From a virus, in the IMG/VR virus record IMGVR_UViG_3300024518_000876, positions 1 to 64,000 of that record: 64,000 nt of DNA; one strand, 5' to 3'. The notes under the pieces are model-generated. The model was given only the letters and a program-made list of their open reading frames with translations, was not told the origin of the DNA and did not search any database. This document shows, piece by piece, positions 15,637-36,190 of the stretch. The first letter of the stretch is position 1; every line of letters begins with the position of its first letter. The translations under genes were made by a program, and so were the position numbers.

Positions 15637-17308
15637 CTGGTTCTACTTCATTTACTTCTTCTGGTTCTAGTGGATTTACTTCGTGATTTACTGGCTCGGG
15701 TCCTCCTACGTTAATTGGAATTTCTCCATATCTACCGGCTAAAGGATGTTGACCAAGTATTTGATCCAGCAGTTCTCTTCTATTTTGTAACTTTGTTATA
15801 TTGAAGATTTCATCAGAATTACTGTTATCAGATTTTGCCCAATTAAATCTACCAGTAGGAATACGTAGTTCATCACCTGTAATGTTACCGTCTCTAAGTT
15901 GATGACTAGTGCATCTACATCTATTAGCAAAATAGTTTTTAAGTCCATCCACTAATCTTAAATCACTAGCATATTCACTATTAATTATTTTTGAAATACT
16001 TAATCCATAAAAGGCACTAGTATCTGCTAAAATAACATTTTGTTTACGTTTAGTATATTTTAAAATTGCTGCGCAAATGAACATAAAATTTATTACTTTA
16101 TTTGGATCATCTGTTGCAGTATGAATTCTGAATTCTACTGTTTTTTTATTACCAAATATAATAGGTATTAAATTTACCCAGTGGTATCTACTTCGTACAT
16201 TCCATTTACTTCTTCCTTCTGGATCTGCCGGGTGACTAGTTACATTTCCTAAATTAGAAAACTGCTCATAATCTTGACCCATAGAAAGGTATTTAAATAA
16301 ATACCCAAAACTTTTTTTTACTTCTTTTGCATTCTTTGCTTTTCTACCCATTTCTGAAAACACTTTAAATACAGGTAAAGGTGCAGTATAGCACTTTTTC
16401 TTAACCCCATGATTTTCTTTTTTATAAATAGGAAACGCACTGAACATTTCATCTTGGACTATTGTTAACACTTTGTACAATGCAACTAAATACTCTTCTG
16501 TTCTTGGTACTCCTCCAAAGTGAATATGTAAAGAACAGTCGTCATTATGAGACGTTCTTTTTTGTAATTCCTTACAAGTTTCTACTATTGTTTGTAAACC
16601 TTTCTTTCCTGATAAAGGTATGGTTACAAATTCTAATCCTGAAATACTACCATCTCTTAAAGGTAGTACTCCTAGTCTAGAAGAAATACGTGGGGGAATA
16701 TATCCCTGTGTAGTTTCAAATTCTAATCCAAAAGATAATCCATCTAACTTAGAACCGTGCTTTTCAATTAGTAGGCTGTTAGGAGTATTAAAGTTTTCTT
16801 TATGAATATCAATAACTGCACCCATGTTTCCATTAGCATCGTAAGGTAATCTTCTTTTTGCTTCCTGTGAAATATTTTTTGAAATAAGTTGCTTAGCGTC
16901 TATTATATTGATGTGATAAAATTTTCCCGATTTTAACTCTTCTCTATAGTAGGTGTTTGTGAATAAATCTGCAAATAAAGCTATAGTTTTTTTTCCTTTT
17001 TTACATAAGACTTCAACATTAAAAAATTGATTATATGTAAAATAACCATATATAAAAGTTTCTAAATCAGGTTTTAAGTTTATTACTCCATAAATAAGAG
17101 AGTCTACTTTTTTTACATACTTTTCTAATCCGTGGTCATAAACAATATAACCTGTGTCTGCTCTGCAGAATTTTCCATCCACTTCATAGCACTGTCCTGA
17201 GCCTTCTATAGAAGAATCTCCTATTTTATAAAAGTTACCTTTGATGTATCTACACTCGTCTCTTAATGCTTCCGTACCATCTATGGTAATTACAAGTTTT
17301 TTGTCCAT
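15620..17308 (-). CDS. Putative amidoligase (amidoligase_2-type)
   Basis: 562 aa. Residues about 190-430 carry the glutamine-synthetase-fold amidoligase pattern: 'GLSFGLEFETT', 'LRDGSISGLEFVTIPLSG', 'CSLHIHFGG' and 'TVEFRIHTATDDP'. Such enzymes form amide bonds between a carboxylate and an amine using ATP. The first 180 residues and the acidic, Pro/Glu-rich tail are extra. It belongs to an operon with a second COOH-NH2 ligase, ATP-grasp, amidotransferases and GGCT, so the group probably builds or trims a peptide-like product. Confidence 0.8.
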   Translation of the reverse strand: MDKKLVITIDGTEALRDECRYIKGNFYKIGDSSIEGSGQCYEVDGKFCRADTGYIVYDHGLEKYVKKVDSLIYGVINLKPDLETFIYGYFTYNQFFNVEVLCKKGKKTIALFADLFTNTYYREELKSGKFYHINIIDAKQLISKNISQEAKRRLPYDANGNMGAVIDIHKENFNTPNSLLIEKHGSKLDGLSFGLEFETTQGYIPPRISSRLGVLPLRDGSISGLEFVTIPLSGKKGLQTIVETCKELQKRTSHNDDCSLHIHFGGVPRTEEYLVALYKVLTIVQDEMFSAFPIYKKENHGVKKKCYTAPLPVFKVFSEMGRKAKNAKEVKKSFGYLFKYLSMGQDYEQFSNLGNVTSHPADPEGRSKWNVRSRYHWVNLIPIIFGNKKTVEFRIHTATDDPNKVINFMFICAAILKYTKRKQNVILADTSAFYGLSISKIINSEYASDLRLVDGLKNYFANRCRCTSHQLRDGNITGDELRIPTGRFNWAKSDNSNSDEIFNITKLQNRRELLDQILGQHPLAGRYGEIPINVGGPEPVNHEVNPLEPEEVNEVEPDEEVL

Positions 17309-17318
17309 TTTTATTTTT

Positions 17319-19187
17319 TTAATTAATTTCTAAAGTACTATCTATTAATGTATTGATTATCTTTATTGCCTTTTCAGCATTTTTATTAGGCAGATACTTT
17401 TTTAATGCTTCTTTACCTACAGGTAATTTTGTTAATGCATCTTCAAAAATTTCATCTATAGTATCTAATACTAATGCATTATCTGCTTCTTCATTATCAC
17501 GGTTAGGACCAAGATATGAATTACCTAAATTATTCCATTCATCTTCAACTTGACAAGTAATACATGTATTATCTCCACATACACAATCATGTAGTTGGTT
17601 AGTTGGGTTTACTTCTGCTTTAGGAAGTGGTAATTCTATAATTGGTTTCTTTGGTTTTAAAACTAGATTTGAAGGAGTACGTAAGTTATTAGTATCTACT
17701 AAGTTTCCGTTAATAAACTTATAGGTTTTATAAGCACCTAATCCTCCCCACCATCCTGTGTATAAGTCACCATTAAACATCACATTTTGAGCAGTGTAAT
17801 GCATATTTGTCAGTATATTACAAACTGGATGTTTAGACATATGACTTAACTGCTTCCAAGTAAATTCATTTGTTTGTCCTACCCTTGCTTTAACTGTTAA
17901 ATAATCTAATTCAGTACGTAAGTTTACACCTTGAACAAAGTAACTAAATTTAATTTCTGATCCCAGGAAAAAAGCCACTTTTTTATTTTCAGCGATGCTT
18001 GCTGCATAAGTATCAAACTCTCCGTCTTCATAATTAAATATTTTACCTTTTACAGAATCAGCTACTTTAGCCGCTTCGTCACGAGTGTGTCCTAAAAAGT
18101 AAAAACCATAGTCACTTATAAAAGTATAAATACCATTTATTAAATGACCGTTTCTAAAATAACGTAGTTTGTGAAAAATAGGTCTTTTACCTACTTGTAT
18201 AGTTGCGAACCTAGGCGTTTCTTTATATATGTTTTGGTCAGGAGATAATTCTATAATCTTTTCCGAAGTATTAAACGCACTATTAGCTTTAGTTATTTTT
18301 TCTGCTTTCTTTTTAAATTGTTGTCTTTTATTAATACCATATTTCCCATTGTTACTGCTAAAATGCGAATTATTATTAAAACTTGAGCCATAAGTTTGCT
18401 TTTGAGTCTGATTTGATCTATCTATTTTATATTTAATTGCTTTAGATATATCTCCATTTGTAATTTTATAAACAATATTAGTATCAAATTCTCCAATATT
18501 TGTGTCATCTCCTCCAGCTAATACTTGTAAAGAAGATTTTAAAGAAGAAATATATAAACTATTTTTACTTTCTTTAAAGAAAAACAAAGGTCTTTCTCCT
18601 TCAGTAGTAGCAGAATGTTCGTAATGTTTACTTTCTCCACGATAACAGTATATTACATTAGGTTCTTCTGTATTAGTAAACACTAAAGCAGCTCCTCCTG
18701 TGTAATCTTCAAGTACATTAAAAGAAGTTGAATGATAAATACATTCTAAGAGTATTTCACTATCAATTTTTACTCTATTTGTTACATAATGTAGCCCTTT
18801 TTCCTCTTCTGAAATTTTTACATCATAAGTATTTGCAATTTCTGTTTTATTGTATAAAGTACCATTATGTACTCCTATAAACTTATAAATGTTATTTTTT
18901 AATCCAAACCCAAACGGATGGGCATTTTCTATAGAAGCGTCTCCATTAGATGCTTGTCTAGTATGCCCTATAACAGTTGGCATTTTTACAGGGTTTGCTA
19001 AAGGTTCACCAGACACTAGGTAATCTTTAAACAGTCTAGTAGCTTTTAAACCTATTCTTATAGTCCCGTCAATAGTTTCTCCACATGAAGTTTTACCTCT
19101 AGATTCGTTATATAACCCTAGTATATTAAAAGAACTTCTGTTAAACTTAGTTGGGTTTTTTCCAGCCCATGCAAATATTCCACACAT
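17319..19187 (-). CDS. Class II glutamine amidotransferase, extended
   Basis: 622 aa. The N-terminal nucleophile Cys2 (MCGIFAWAG), 'GHTRQASNG' and 'GVHNGTLYN' are the signature of class II (Ntn) glutamine amidotransferases, which release ammonia from glutamine. The domain ends near residue 250. The remaining ~370 residues include an SN-rich linker and a Cys cluster (CVCGDNTCITC) that may bind metal. It likely supplies ammonia to, or acts on products of, the neighbouring ligases. Confidence 0.85.
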   Translation of the reverse strand: MCGIFAWAGKNPTKFNRSSFNILGLYNESRGKTSCGETIDGTIRIGLKATRLFKDYLVSGEPLANPVKMPTVIGHTRQASNGDASIENAHPFGFGLKNNIYKFIGVHNGTLYNKTEIANTYDVKISEEEKGLHYVTNRVKIDSEILLECIYHSTSFNVLEDYTGGAALVFTNTEEPNVIYCYRGESKHYEHSATTEGERPLFFFKESKNSLYISSLKSSLQVLAGGDDTNIGEFDTNIVYKITNGDISKAIKYKIDRSNQTQKQTYGSSFNNNSHFSSNNGKYGINKRQQFKKKAEKITKANSAFNTSEKIIELSPDQNIYKETPRFATIQVGKRPIFHKLRYFRNGHLINGIYTFISDYGFYFLGHTRDEAAKVADSVKGKIFNYEDGEFDTYAASIAENKKVAFFLGSEIKFSYFVQGVNLRTELDYLTVKARVGQTNEFTWKQLSHMSKHPVCNILTNMHYTAQNVMFNGDLYTGWWGGLGAYKTYKFINGNLVDTNNLRTPSNLVLKPKKPIIELPLPKAEVNPTNQLHDCVCGDNTCITCQVEDEWNNLGNSYLGPNRDNEEADNALVLDTIDEIFEDALTKLPVGKEALKKYLPNKNAEKAIKIINTLIDSTLEIN

Positions 19188-28416: not shown

Positions 28417-28930
28417 CTAACAGCTCTTTTAATGTTCTAGGCGTGTACTCTACTTGTTCACATGATACACAAATGTACCTCTTGTCATCAACTAGACCAA
28501 ACCATTTCTTTACTTTATACTCATGGATATGTCCATGAATATTAATATTTATTCTACCTCTACCAAATTCTCTAGTATGTATCGGCGCGTGTGTAAGAAA
28601 GGCTGTTAGCTTTTCAGTTCTAAATCTTTTCTTTAACATACCTAAAACTCCATCTACATGCTCTAATAGAGTCGGTACATGTTGTCTTTTGTCATGGTTT
28701 CCTAGTATTACGTAAATTTTACCATTTAGTTTACTTAAAATAGGATATACAGCAGATTTTTCCATACTTACATCTCCTAGTATATAAGTAGTATCGTTTT
28801 TACCTACAGTAGTATTCCATTTTTTTACTATAAATGCATCTTGTTCTGATGCATCTCTAAAACCTCTGTGTTTAGCCATGTTTTCATGCCCAAAATGGAG
28901 ATCTGCAATAAATCTTGTTGTGTTACTCAT
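28406..28930 (-). CDS. Calcineurin-like metallophosphoesterase
   Basis: 174 aa. All blocks are present: 'FIADLHFGHEN' (DxH), 'ILGDVSM' (GDxx), 'VILGNHDKR' (GNHD), 'FLTHAPI' and 'INIHGHIHE' (GHxH). A di-metal hydrolase acting on phosphoesters; phage substrates vary (nucleotides, RNA ends, protein). Overlaps the dNMP kinase and helicase genes. Confidence 0.9.
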   Translation of the reverse strand: MSNTTRFIADLHFGHENMAKHRGFRDASEQDAFIVKKWNTTVGKNDTTYILGDVSMEKSAVYPILSKLNGKIYVILGNHDKRQHVPTLLEHVDGVLGMLKKRFRTEKLTAFLTHAPIHTREFGRGRININIHGHIHEYKVKKWFGLVDDKRYICVSCEQVEYTPRTLKELLDEK

Positions 28931-29861
28931 TTCCTCTTATTTTATTAATAAATTTAGTTACTCCTTTTAAAGCGGCAGCATCTTTAGGTTTAGGTAATTC
29001 TTTAAAATAGTTCACTGCACCATCAAAGTACAATGGACATATAGTACCACCCCCACCTTCTCTACCACCTAGTATCTCTAGAAACCTAATATTATCTTTA
29101 AAATACTTAATGTCATAACCTTTATAATCTGGTATTTCATGCCTATAAGGACTAAATAATCCTAATATGACATTAGCATCCCTCTGAGTACTTTTGTTGT
29201 CACCTAAGCCATCCATTGTAGGTTTTAACCTGTTGGCTTTAGCATTTTCAACACTTTCTTGAGCTGATGCTTGTTGTTGTATAGCTACTGGTATGTAATT
29301 ATACATATTTCTTAATTTTACAAAATAATCTGAAGATAATTTACTTATACAATCACGTAAGTTAAGTCGTTTGCCTTCTAAGCTTTCAGTACTTAATAAA
29401 CCTATATGATCTACAATACACATTACGTATTCTTCTGGATTATTTGGTTCATAGTAATCAAACAATTCTGTGTCTTTACCATGAATTTTTACAGTTTTAT
29501 AAATTTTAGTACCATGCGTTTCTGCATAGCCCCTCATAAATTTATATATACCTGTAGGATTTCTAATATCATCAATAAATGTAACTATTTTTTCTACCTG
29601 TTTAAAATACTCTTCATATTTTAAGATAAGTTCTAATTTATCTTTTGATAATACTTTATCTGCTTTAGTACTCCTTAAATCTTTAGGTGCAATTCTCACA
29701 CCTTCTTTAATATAAAGTAAATTACTAAAAGCAGATCTCATCTTCTCTTCTTTAGACATTTCTAAAGAGAAATAAAAGATTTTTAATTTAATATTTAATT
29801 TCTTATCTAACACTTGTTGTATAGCATTATATAAGAATAACCAATCAGTTATTTGCGTTTT
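28923..29861 (-). CDS. DnaB-like replicative helicase, exon 2
   Basis: 312 aa of the helicase after splicing, starting KTQITDWLFLYNA. It supplies the Lys-Thr of Walker A, 'KIFYFSLEMSKEEK', Walker B 'MCIVDHIGLL' and the motif 'QRDANVILGLF' of DnaB. The upstream frame is closed by a TAA inside the intron and has no good start. Joining to exon 1 (31019-31192) gives a 370-aa RecA-fold helicase without the DnaB N-terminal domain. Confidence 0.88.
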   Translation of the reverse strand, partial: KTQITDWLFLYNAIQQVLDKKLNIKLKIFYFSLEMSKEEKMRSAFSNLLYIKEGVRIAPKDLRSTKADKVLSKDKLELILKYEEYFKQVEKIVTFIDDIRNPTGIYKFMRGYAETHGTKIYKTVKIHGKDTELFDYYEPNNPEEYVMCIVDHIGLLSTESLEGKRLNLRDCISKLSSDYFVKLRNMYNYIPVAIQQQASAQESVENAKANRLKPTMDGLGDNKSTQRDANVILGLFSPYRHEIPDYKGYDIKYFKDNIRFLEILGGREGGGGTICPLYFDGAVNYFKELPKPKDAAALKGVTKFINKIRGNE

Positions 29862-29889
29862 CAGCGTTTGTTACTACAAAATTATAAAT

Positions 29890-30456
29890 TTAAAAAGGAA
29901 TACATTCGTCGCGTTGTAATTCCTCTTGTAAAGCAGCTAGTTGTTCAGTAAGTCTTTCTTTTTTTAATCCTATATATGACATTACTGTAAAAAAGTCAAA
30001 CTCATCGGCGTAACTAATATTATTTCTAACAATATAATCATTGTAGTCATAAAAAAGATAATCTACTAATACTCTACGCTGAGGTTCTTCGCTAAGTCTG
30101 TGTTTTGTAGTTCTCCAACCATTTGTATGAAATACTATTTTACGTACATCAGGACAATATATAAGCATTTTTCCTGTTTGTTTCAATCCAATAATACTAT
30201 AAATCACTCTTAGTAATTGTTGTGGAGAAACATTTTCAAAATAAGTGTTACTGATTTTTAATAAATCACCAAAAGATCTTGCTTTACCCGCTTTACATTG
30301 CATTCTTTTTAAATGGTAGTTTTTTGCAGAGTAGGTAGGAGGAAACTGTGTCCAACCTTCTACTTCTCTATTATAAAGAGCAGTTATAAAAGTTTTTAAG
30401 TTTGCCCTATCTTCTTCGCTAGGCAAATCTGCCGGTCTAATATATATTTTTTCCAT
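29890..30456 (-). CDS. Intron-encoded 188-aa protein
   Basis: 188 aa, starting MEKIYIRPADLPSEEDRAN. Located between P9 and the 3' splice site. It shows no LAGLIDADG, GIY-YIG or HNH motif. Regions such as 'KMLIYCPDVRKIVFHTNGW' and 'VLVDYLFYDYNDYIV' look like an ordinary globular protein. Could be a divergent homing nuclease or a cargo gene. Confidence 0.75.
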   Translation of the reverse strand: MEKIYIRPADLPSEEDRANLKTFITALYNREVEGWTQFPPTYSAKNYHLKRMQCKAGKARSFGDLLKISNTYFENVSPQQLLRVIYSIIGLKQTGKMLIYCPDVRKIVFHTNGWRTTKHRLSEEPQRRVLVDYLFYDYNDYIVRNNISYADEFDFFTVMSYIGLKKERLTEQLAALQEELQRDECIPF

Positions 30457-30524
30457 TTTTATTTTTTATAATTTTGTGATTAAGTCATTTCTGCTTAATT
30501 CTACATGTCACCATGTAGCTCGGA

Positions 30525-30914
30525 CTATCTCATCAACCTATTCCAATATGCATCATCTTTTATACCATTACAATCTGTACAGACGTCAATAGTTTTAAAC
30601 CCATAATGAGGGTCTTTACATACACATTTTGATTTTATAGGTTGCTCCTTGTTAGTCTCTACACCGTTTTGTTCAAATAGTTCATAAATTAAATTAGAAG
30701 CTCTAACACATAAATCAGGACTTGCTCCATAATATTTTGCATTAGCTAATTCTAATGTAATTTCATCTACTTCTTTCTCAATTGACGGCACGGGATTGTC
30801 TTTAAGCTTAACAATTTTGTTAGCTACTCTAGTAGCTTCATCTACCTTAGATGCTTCTGTCATTCTAGTACAGTTGTCTAAGGACTGTTTAATAATTTCA
30901 TAAACTTCTGTCAT
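30525..30914 (-). CDS. Intron-encoded 129-aa protein overlapping the intron core
   Basis: 129 aa, starting MTEVYEIIKQSLDNCTRM. C-terminal cysteines (KCVCKDPHYG, VCTDCNG) suggest zinc binding. The same bases encode P5/P4 (GACAATCCCGTGC) and the two P7 strands; the stop codon TAG is part of the P7 3' strand. Codon use is regular, so both roles are plausible. Confidence 0.55.
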   Translation of the reverse strand: MTEVYEIIKQSLDNCTRMTEASKVDEATRVANKIVKLKDNPVPSIEKEVDEITLELANAKYYGASPDLCVRASNLIYELFEQNGVETNKEQPIKSKCVCKDPHYGFKTIDVCTDCNGIKDDAYWNRLMR

Positions 30915-31018
30915 TTTGTTCGTATTAAAGGGTTTCCCCGTTAGCTATTATTTTAATAACCCCCTTGTTAGGGATTCAGAGTTTTCTGTACATATCTCTA
31001 CATACAGGGGCAAATTCT

Positions 31019-31192
31019 ACCCACTTTACTGTTGGCTGTTATTAGATAGTATTTACCTTGTTCTATACCTGGAATTTCATTCTCAAATCTAGGTAATCCC
31101 CAAGGTAAGCAGTTGATTTTACCAGAAAGGATTCGTTCCCTTCTTTCTATCAAATCATCATACACTCTATTAAATAAACTATTTTCCTTCAT
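31019..31192 (-). CDS. DnaB-like replicative helicase, exon 1
   Basis: 58 codons, starting MKENSLFNRVYDDLIERRE and ending 'YYLITANSKVG', the first part of Walker A (AxxxxGKT). 'GIEQGKYYLI' matches the strand before Walker A in DnaB (GLQPGDLIVV). Without splicing the frame runs only 6 more codons (RICPCM) into the intron. Confidence 0.88.
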
Positions 31193-35801: not shown

Positions 35802-35815
35802 ATTAATTTGTTTAG

Positions 35816-36190
35816 TGGAGGTGAGGGGAATCGAACCCCTGTATCTCATTGCTTCGTTGTTAATACTACATTACAGCTTAGTTATAGTTTAATGTCTTTA
35901 ACTAGACTAGGGTCAACCAGAAGGTTAACTTCCACCACCTATTTTAATCTAAATAGGAAATCTGTATCAATTTGTTGTATCAGTTTTCTTCTGCTGCACT
36001 TACTTTTAATGGTTAGGCTGCCATTGCTAATTTAGGTTCTGCTACTGCAGAGTTGATTAAAGAATAAACTTTAGCCATATTAGCTTCTACTTGAGTTTTA
36101 ATGTTTCCATTTAATTCAATTCACCTTGTTTACTGTTGTCTCAGGCTGAGTATTAAGTCGGATCACAACCAGTCAAAACCAGTCACCCCC
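35816..36190 (-). ncRNA. ssrA: tmRNA (ssrA), phage-encoded
   Basis: 5' GGGGGTG pairs with 3' CACCTCC (7 bp, one G-U). The 5' part GACTGGTTTTGACTGG and the 3' part ACTAAGC-TGTAATGTAGTA, then T-arm CAGGGG-TTCGATT-CCCC, match bacterial tmRNA. After TAGAA the resume codon is GCT; the tag of 23 codons starts ANMAKVYS and ends KLAMAA before TAA. CCA is not encoded. It would rescue ribosomes stalled on broken mRNAs. Confidence 0.92.

Follow-up and report, generated by a model that had tools for sequence, protein, structure and literature searches.

Introduction

Overlap of open reading frames (ORFs) with the catalytic core of group I introns, termed 'core creep', is known for endonucleases and for shorter stretches (PMC3073962). 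In the td intron of phage T4, the last 20 nt of the gene for the homing endonuclease I-TevI overlap the core (P6a, P6.0 and P7), and in a group I intron of the Synechococcus lividus rDNA large subunit (LSU; PMC3073962 Table 1) an ORF for a LAGLIDADG endonuclease overlaps P6/P7/P3/P8/P9.0/P9 by 81 nt, as judged from ORF prediction. In orf142 of phage Twort, introns 2 and 3 flank an exon of only 23 nt, which PMC10136302 names as the shortest natural one flanked by such introns. Delta/Zeta crAss-like phages likewise have group I introns in core genes, according to the parts of PMC7886860 considered here; within the open-licence literature, these parts do not describe a dnaB/Walker A site, core-coding ORFs or non-endonuclease cargo.

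Here, we analyse an insertion in the replicative helicase gene dnaB of a virus from IMG/VR, record IMGVR_UViG_3300024518_000876 (103.5 kb in total), of which positions 1 to 64,000 form the stretch under study (the window). Comparative analysis makes it highly probable that the insertion is a self-splicing group I intron which resides inside the Walker A motif, carries small phage genes, and contains an ORF, ORF129, that has grown through the ribozyme core. Like td, it is a phage group I intron in a nucleotide or replication gene with similar P4-P7 sequences and an ORF overlapping the core; ORF129, however, spans P5 to P7' and encodes no recognisable endonuclease. The Synechococcus intron differs in the latter respect as well, and the frame of the ORF129 type was checked in 22 copies.

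Results

The insertion in dnaB and its relatives

A first-pass annotation of the window, made from the sequence alone, had proposed that a group I intron splits the Walker A motif of the replicative helicase. The elements concerned are:

31019 to 31192, minus strand: dnaB exon 1, an ORF of 58 codons ending ...ITANSKVG, with a weak match to PHROG 19 (DnaB)
29862 to 31018, minus strand: predicted group I intron, 1157 nt, first base A, last base G
28923 to 29861, minus strand: dnaB exon 2, starting KTQITDW, matching PHROG 19 (DnaB-like helicase, E=2.8e-8) and, by tblastn, crAss-like DnaB

Exon 1 ends with the codons AAC AGT AAA GTG GGT, and exon 2 begins at 29861 with AAA ACG CAA, so that the insertion lies between dnaB codons 58 and 59, within Walker A; the joined exons read ANSKVGKTQITDW. 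The junction of ...ANSKVG with KTQITDW claimed earlier is thus exact to the base, at 31019/29861. A scan of IMG/VR for helicase relatives yielded 69 loci (numbered with L). Many of these, e.g. L001-L024, L044, L046 and L049, possess a dnaB uninterrupted across the insertion point, while about 20 of the 69 carry an insertion at exactly codon 58/59; accordingly, the element is present or absent at one site among related phages, as in mobile introns. The joined window exons are 59-68% identical to the intronless relatives. In silico removal of the insertion restored the reading frame and produced ANSKVG-KTQ in 17/17 loci tested, in agreement with eight intronless sequences at the same place. Two separate functional genes in related phages, which the annotation had named as contrary evidence, were not found, as the intronless relatives have a single gene. 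An in-frame stop occurs 19-21 nt inside the intron, as is usual for group I introns (PMC3073962). In L042 (3301-4999), an intron of the same family is inserted 4 nt upstream (AAAGGT/AGGAAAAACT, also given as AAAGGT/AGGAAAAAC); the P1/P10 guide pairing is altered in step with the shifted site, and the joined product is still KVGKTQ.

As at least eight relatives are continuous, the 17 joins identical and the core helices covarying (see below), sequence comparison indicates that the insertion is a real intron with both splice sites correctly placed, and that its presence in dnaB is not due to chance. Further dnaB insertions were observed in L047, L050, L053, L063-L068 and L091, at codons of about 93, 162/163, 213, 258/259 and 279/280. 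The helicase gene is an insertion hotspot.

The ribozyme core

The following core elements were assigned within the intron:

31008 to 31011, minus strand: internal guide sequence (IGS) GCCC, pairing with exon GGGU (31022-31019) to form P1
30978 to 30981, minus strand: P3 5' strand CTCT, partner GGAG (30648-30645); 4/4 pairs changed on both sides among ten introns
30937 to 30941, minus strand: P4 5' strand ACGGG, partner CCCGT (30794-30790); invariant in the covariation set
30925 to 30930, minus strand: P5 5' strand CTTTAA, partner TTAAAG (30805-30800); covarying; L5 holds the ORF129 start
30787 to 30789, minus strand: P6 5' strand GCC, partner GGT (30665-30663); pair 2 varies C-G/U-A/G-C; L6 is coding
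30653 to 30657, minus strand: P7 5' strand GACTA, partner TAGTC (30527-30523); covarying
30639 to 30644, minus strand: P8 5' strand CAACCT, partner AGGTTG (30539-30534); L8 encodes CxC...CxxC
30501 to 30518, minus strand: P9 hairpin CTACATG-GTGA-CATGTAG, with GTGA loop; relatives have CTATATG/CATATAG
30479 to 30499, minus strand: P9.1 hairpin ATTAAG-CAGAAATGA-CTTAAT; relatives have the same loop on other stems
30465 to 30477, minus strand: P9.2 5' arm ACAAAATTATAAA, a perfect 13-bp stem with 29888-29876 (0/300 shuffles)
29876 to 29888, minus strand: P9.2 3' arm TTTATAATTTTGT, partner of 30465-30477

The elements named previously, i.e. the exon U pairing with an intron G, the terminal G, the td-like P4/P5 sequences (AACGGGG and GACAATCCCGTGC), the P7 strands and the GNRA-capped P9, were all recovered. 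For a covariation analysis, ten introns were cut by hand to their paired strands and aligned ungapped in a hand-chosen register; in this set, whose members are related to one another so that the counts are not independent events, 94.2% of 380 cells were paired and 15/38 pairs had changed on both sides. None of 500 shuffles reached any of the pairing or covariation measures, and sliding the partners by 1-3 columns as a control gave 37.5-53.2% paired cells and 2-5 pairs changed on both sides. The compensatory changes in these 15 pairs support P1, P10 and a P3/P4/P5/P6/P7/P8 core including the P3-P7 pseudoknot. P3 reads CUC(A), UUCC or CAUC, its partner strand changing to match, P7 shows A-U replaced by G-C (L040 and Cellulophaga phage phi14:2) or U-A (L069), and in P8 60/60 cells are paired with four pairs changed on both sides. 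A U.G at the 5' splice site occurs in 10/10 introns, together with a terminal G and a P10 of 3-5 bp. In the window, P10 is formed by the UUU immediately 5' of the IGS and the first AAA of exon 2, and it tracks the exon sequence, since phi14:2 has GAUUU/AAAUC. The 3' core also resembles other phage sequences.

A probable coding frame through the core

30525 to 30914, minus strand: ORF129, reading through P5-P4-P6-P7-P3-P8, with its TAG stop within the P7 3' strand and C-terminal cysteines that may bind zinc

In the ORF129 peptide, KDNPVPS is the translation of P5'/P4'/P6, and NGVETNKEQP is that of P6'/P7/P3'/P8. An exact pattern search recovered the core-reading frame from relatives as well, not only within dnaB but also within other genes. 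P4' and P7 are spaced by a multiple of three nucleotides in 22/22 distinct copies with an expanded L6, for which the chance would be about 3e-11 if the copies were independent. The ORF129 frame is free of stops in 21 of these 22 copies, while the two other frames are open in none; in shuffled sequences an open frame had a probability of 0.1-3% per copy, giving a summed log10 P of about -42 over the 22 copies. The compact cores of L036, L039, L041, L043, L051 and L069 contain stops, and therefore an open frame is not forced by the RNA. Since the frame is always kept and almost always open while the others never are, it appears very likely from these sequences that the ribozyme core is also read as protein via ORF129. 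For L6, pN/pS (nonsynonymous and synonymous) values were 0.24/0.24 between the window and L026 and 0.07/0.17, 0.22/0.43 and 0.20/0.45 in three other pairs, so that dN/dS falls below 1 in every pair except window/L026. Paired cysteines are present in L8 of several copies. The predicted fold of ORF129 was of low confidence (pLDDT, predicted local distance difference test, of 52) and was not used.

Some copies showed additional features. In intron B of L034, the P4'-P7 coding segment is seemingly duplicated in frame at 1075 and 1234 (NGVETEKKEGNPVS...KDVETNNGQP), the first copy looking decayed. A small domain (DWRKPKKWEQV...GNYWICKTYKFGW) resides in L6 of L040 and L093, which are different loci, and a similar separate ORF is found in L086 (431-595); the sharing of this domain suggests its capture into L6. 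Members of the core-coding intron family were also seen in or beside other replication genes in L084, L085, L086, L088 and L096, apparently in PolA motif A (...VCDYSG), PolB and another P-loop ATPase.

A second intron and a 9-nt exon in relatives

In L027/L028, L034, L035, L036, L039/L045 and L041, exon 1 ends with ...AATAGT and is followed by a second intron of 302-1241 nt, a 9-nt exon AAAGTGGGT encoding Lys-Val-Gly of Walker A (e.g. L036 1872-1880) and then the window-type intron; removal of both introns restores dnaB. A lost 5' splice site, considered for L027, L034-L036, L039 and L041 from the apparent end of the N-terminal exon (ANS*), was rejected in favour of this arrangement. As in Twort orf142, two group I introns flank a very short exon; here, however, the exon encodes Walker A residues, and the tandem occurs in L027, L034-L036, L039 and L041 and not in the window. 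A 27-nt match at 17299-17324 considered as a second intron in the window was judged AT-rich and rejected.

ORF188 and other cargo

29890 to 30456, minus strand: ORF188, in L9.2, a member of the 'RSFxDL...CxDIxK' family (alignment A1), with the free-standing homologue phi14:2 g061

The P9.2 arms in L029, L035, L037 and L053 differ from those of the window and yet pair equally. Neither ORF129 nor ORF188 matched Pfam or PHROG, and no known homing endonuclease family was recognised in the window intron. A fold search with ORF188 gave no usable PDB match and a single viral one, phi14:2 S0A2B8, which is probably g061. Scans of viral contigs with ORF188 and ORF129 gave no relatives; these came via the dnaB introns. 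The copies at the dnaB site range from 761 to 2946 nt and contain one to five ORFs each, with inserts in a hairpin between P3 and P4, in L5, L6, L8, L9 and L9.2. The intron ORFs are mostly not endonucleases; the only known families among those tested were LAGLIDADG (L029, L035) and, in intron A, GIY-YIG.

The dnaB intron of phage phi14:2

The same dnaB intron, 2616 nt in length (L072 1651-4266), is present in phi14:2, where it is unannotated in RefSeq. The dnaB region (L072/L097 12982-16707, NC_021806.1) is annotated there with exon 1 as a separate hypothetical protein (g024), the intron ORFs as g025-g028 and a DnaB (g029) that lacks Walker A. The predicted splice junction joins AAAGTGGGT to AAATCACAA. 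A transcription study of this phage has been described (PMC10136315).

Genomic setting

The genes around dnaB in the window are on the minus strand, and the adjoining gene encodes a family A DNA polymerase. The best matches of the helicase are from crAss-like phages, namely uncultured phage cr108_1 (50% identity) and phi14:2 (56%; tblastn). A transfer-messenger RNA (tmRNA) gene is located at 35813-36190 on the minus strand (Rfam, 58.2 bits; ARAGORN tag AEPKLAMAA), the genome being that of a crAss-like phage.

Discussion

Beyond the first-pass annotation, our analysis adds that an ORF crosses the core, that no homing endonuclease is recognisable and that the intron belongs to a wider family. 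We propose that, during infection, a two-step splicing reaction initiated by guanosine would yield a functional helicase mRNA, and that the intron would carry small phage genes in its peripheral loops, with ORF129 having grown through the catalytic core so that the core RNA may also be read as protein. Each transcript would then either fold and splice, in which case helicase is made, or be translated through the core to give ORF129; ribosomes on the core would block splicing while present, and such an either/or choice would couple the expression of the intron genes to that of the helicase.

Several observations weigh against this reading. The window gave no match to the Rfam group I model at gathering or permissive thresholds (E up to 10), so that the check suggested by the annotation was negative on the window itself, whereas at the corresponding position of L036 a compact intron matched RF00028 (Intron_gpI) with 68.8 bits. 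The two L036 introns scored 88.5 and 68.8 bits, and intron A of L039 scored 88.2; the L036 core is of the compact type, and its match concerns a related arrangement, not the expanded type itself. We attribute the miss in the window to ORF sequence expanding L5, L6, L8 and L9.2, which in expanded introns hold 100-600 nt each. In addition, the P3 5' strand and P4 are separated by two hairpins in place of the usual short J3/4, the segments for covariation were excised and placed in register by hand, and L6 dN/dS between the window and L026 is near 1, at small counts. The Rfam miss, together with the about 120-140 nt of coding sequence separating core strands, could mean that ORF expansion has broken the ribozyme and that no full-length DnaB arises from the window gene. 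We regard such a dying or dead intron as highly improbable: the window copy retains all scorable core pairs and a 13-bp P9.2 stem free of mismatches, the dnaB exons are intact and conserved, and diverged phages share the expanded layout, with compensatory changes. Even more remote is a split gene, with two separate helicase subunits or trans-splicing. For phi14:2, RefSeq does list the region as two separate ORFs, but each half would be without part of Walker A, the halves are contiguous on the same strand and in the same phase, and single-gene relatives exist. An IStron or intein was rejected, as no encoded product fits.

More weight is due to two alternatives concerning the ORFs, although we consider both unlikely. 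ORF188 might be an unrecognised homing endonuclease or maturase within an ordinary mobile intron, given that one intron with one endonuclease is the usual layout and that the sole ORF in the minimal 761-nt intron of L030 belongs to the ORF188 family. However, besides the lack of Pfam, PHROG and usable PDB fold matches, the three conserved internal residues of the family are R, S and C, and the family occurs twice per intron in L034, L036 and L041 and beside LAGLIDADG in L035. Moreover, in phi14:2 g061 does not lie in the dnaB intron but is packed into an operon elsewhere, and the existence of this free-standing member argues for the ORF188 family being captured phage cargo. A somewhat better case can be made for the core frame being kept solely for ribosome access, as a translation-controlled splicing switch with a functionless peptide, since the L6 and L8 peptides vary greatly among copies while the frame never breaks; on the other hand, L6 peptides are conserved, dN being lower than dS in all but one of four pairs, and the paired cysteines recur in L8.

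Returning to the self-splicing intron with a core read in two ways, it might tentatively be speculated, at somewhat less than even chances, that in this intron family most of the 3' half of the core (P5-P4-P6-P7-P3-P8) is kept as code for functional non-endonuclease proteins, acting as a translation/splicing switch and a gene-carrying island across several genes for replication in crAss-like phages and their relatives. The helicase annotation of phi14:2 is corrected, and splicing thereby becomes testable in a cultured crAss-like phage. The relatives add a pair of group I introns set apart by an exon of only 9 nt, and the family presents phage introns as carriers of several non-endonuclease genes. 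Altogether, the comparisons make a strong case for a ribozyme core doubling as conserved coding sequence, which bears on the invasion of ribozymes by ORFs through core creep and on the separation of translation from splicing.
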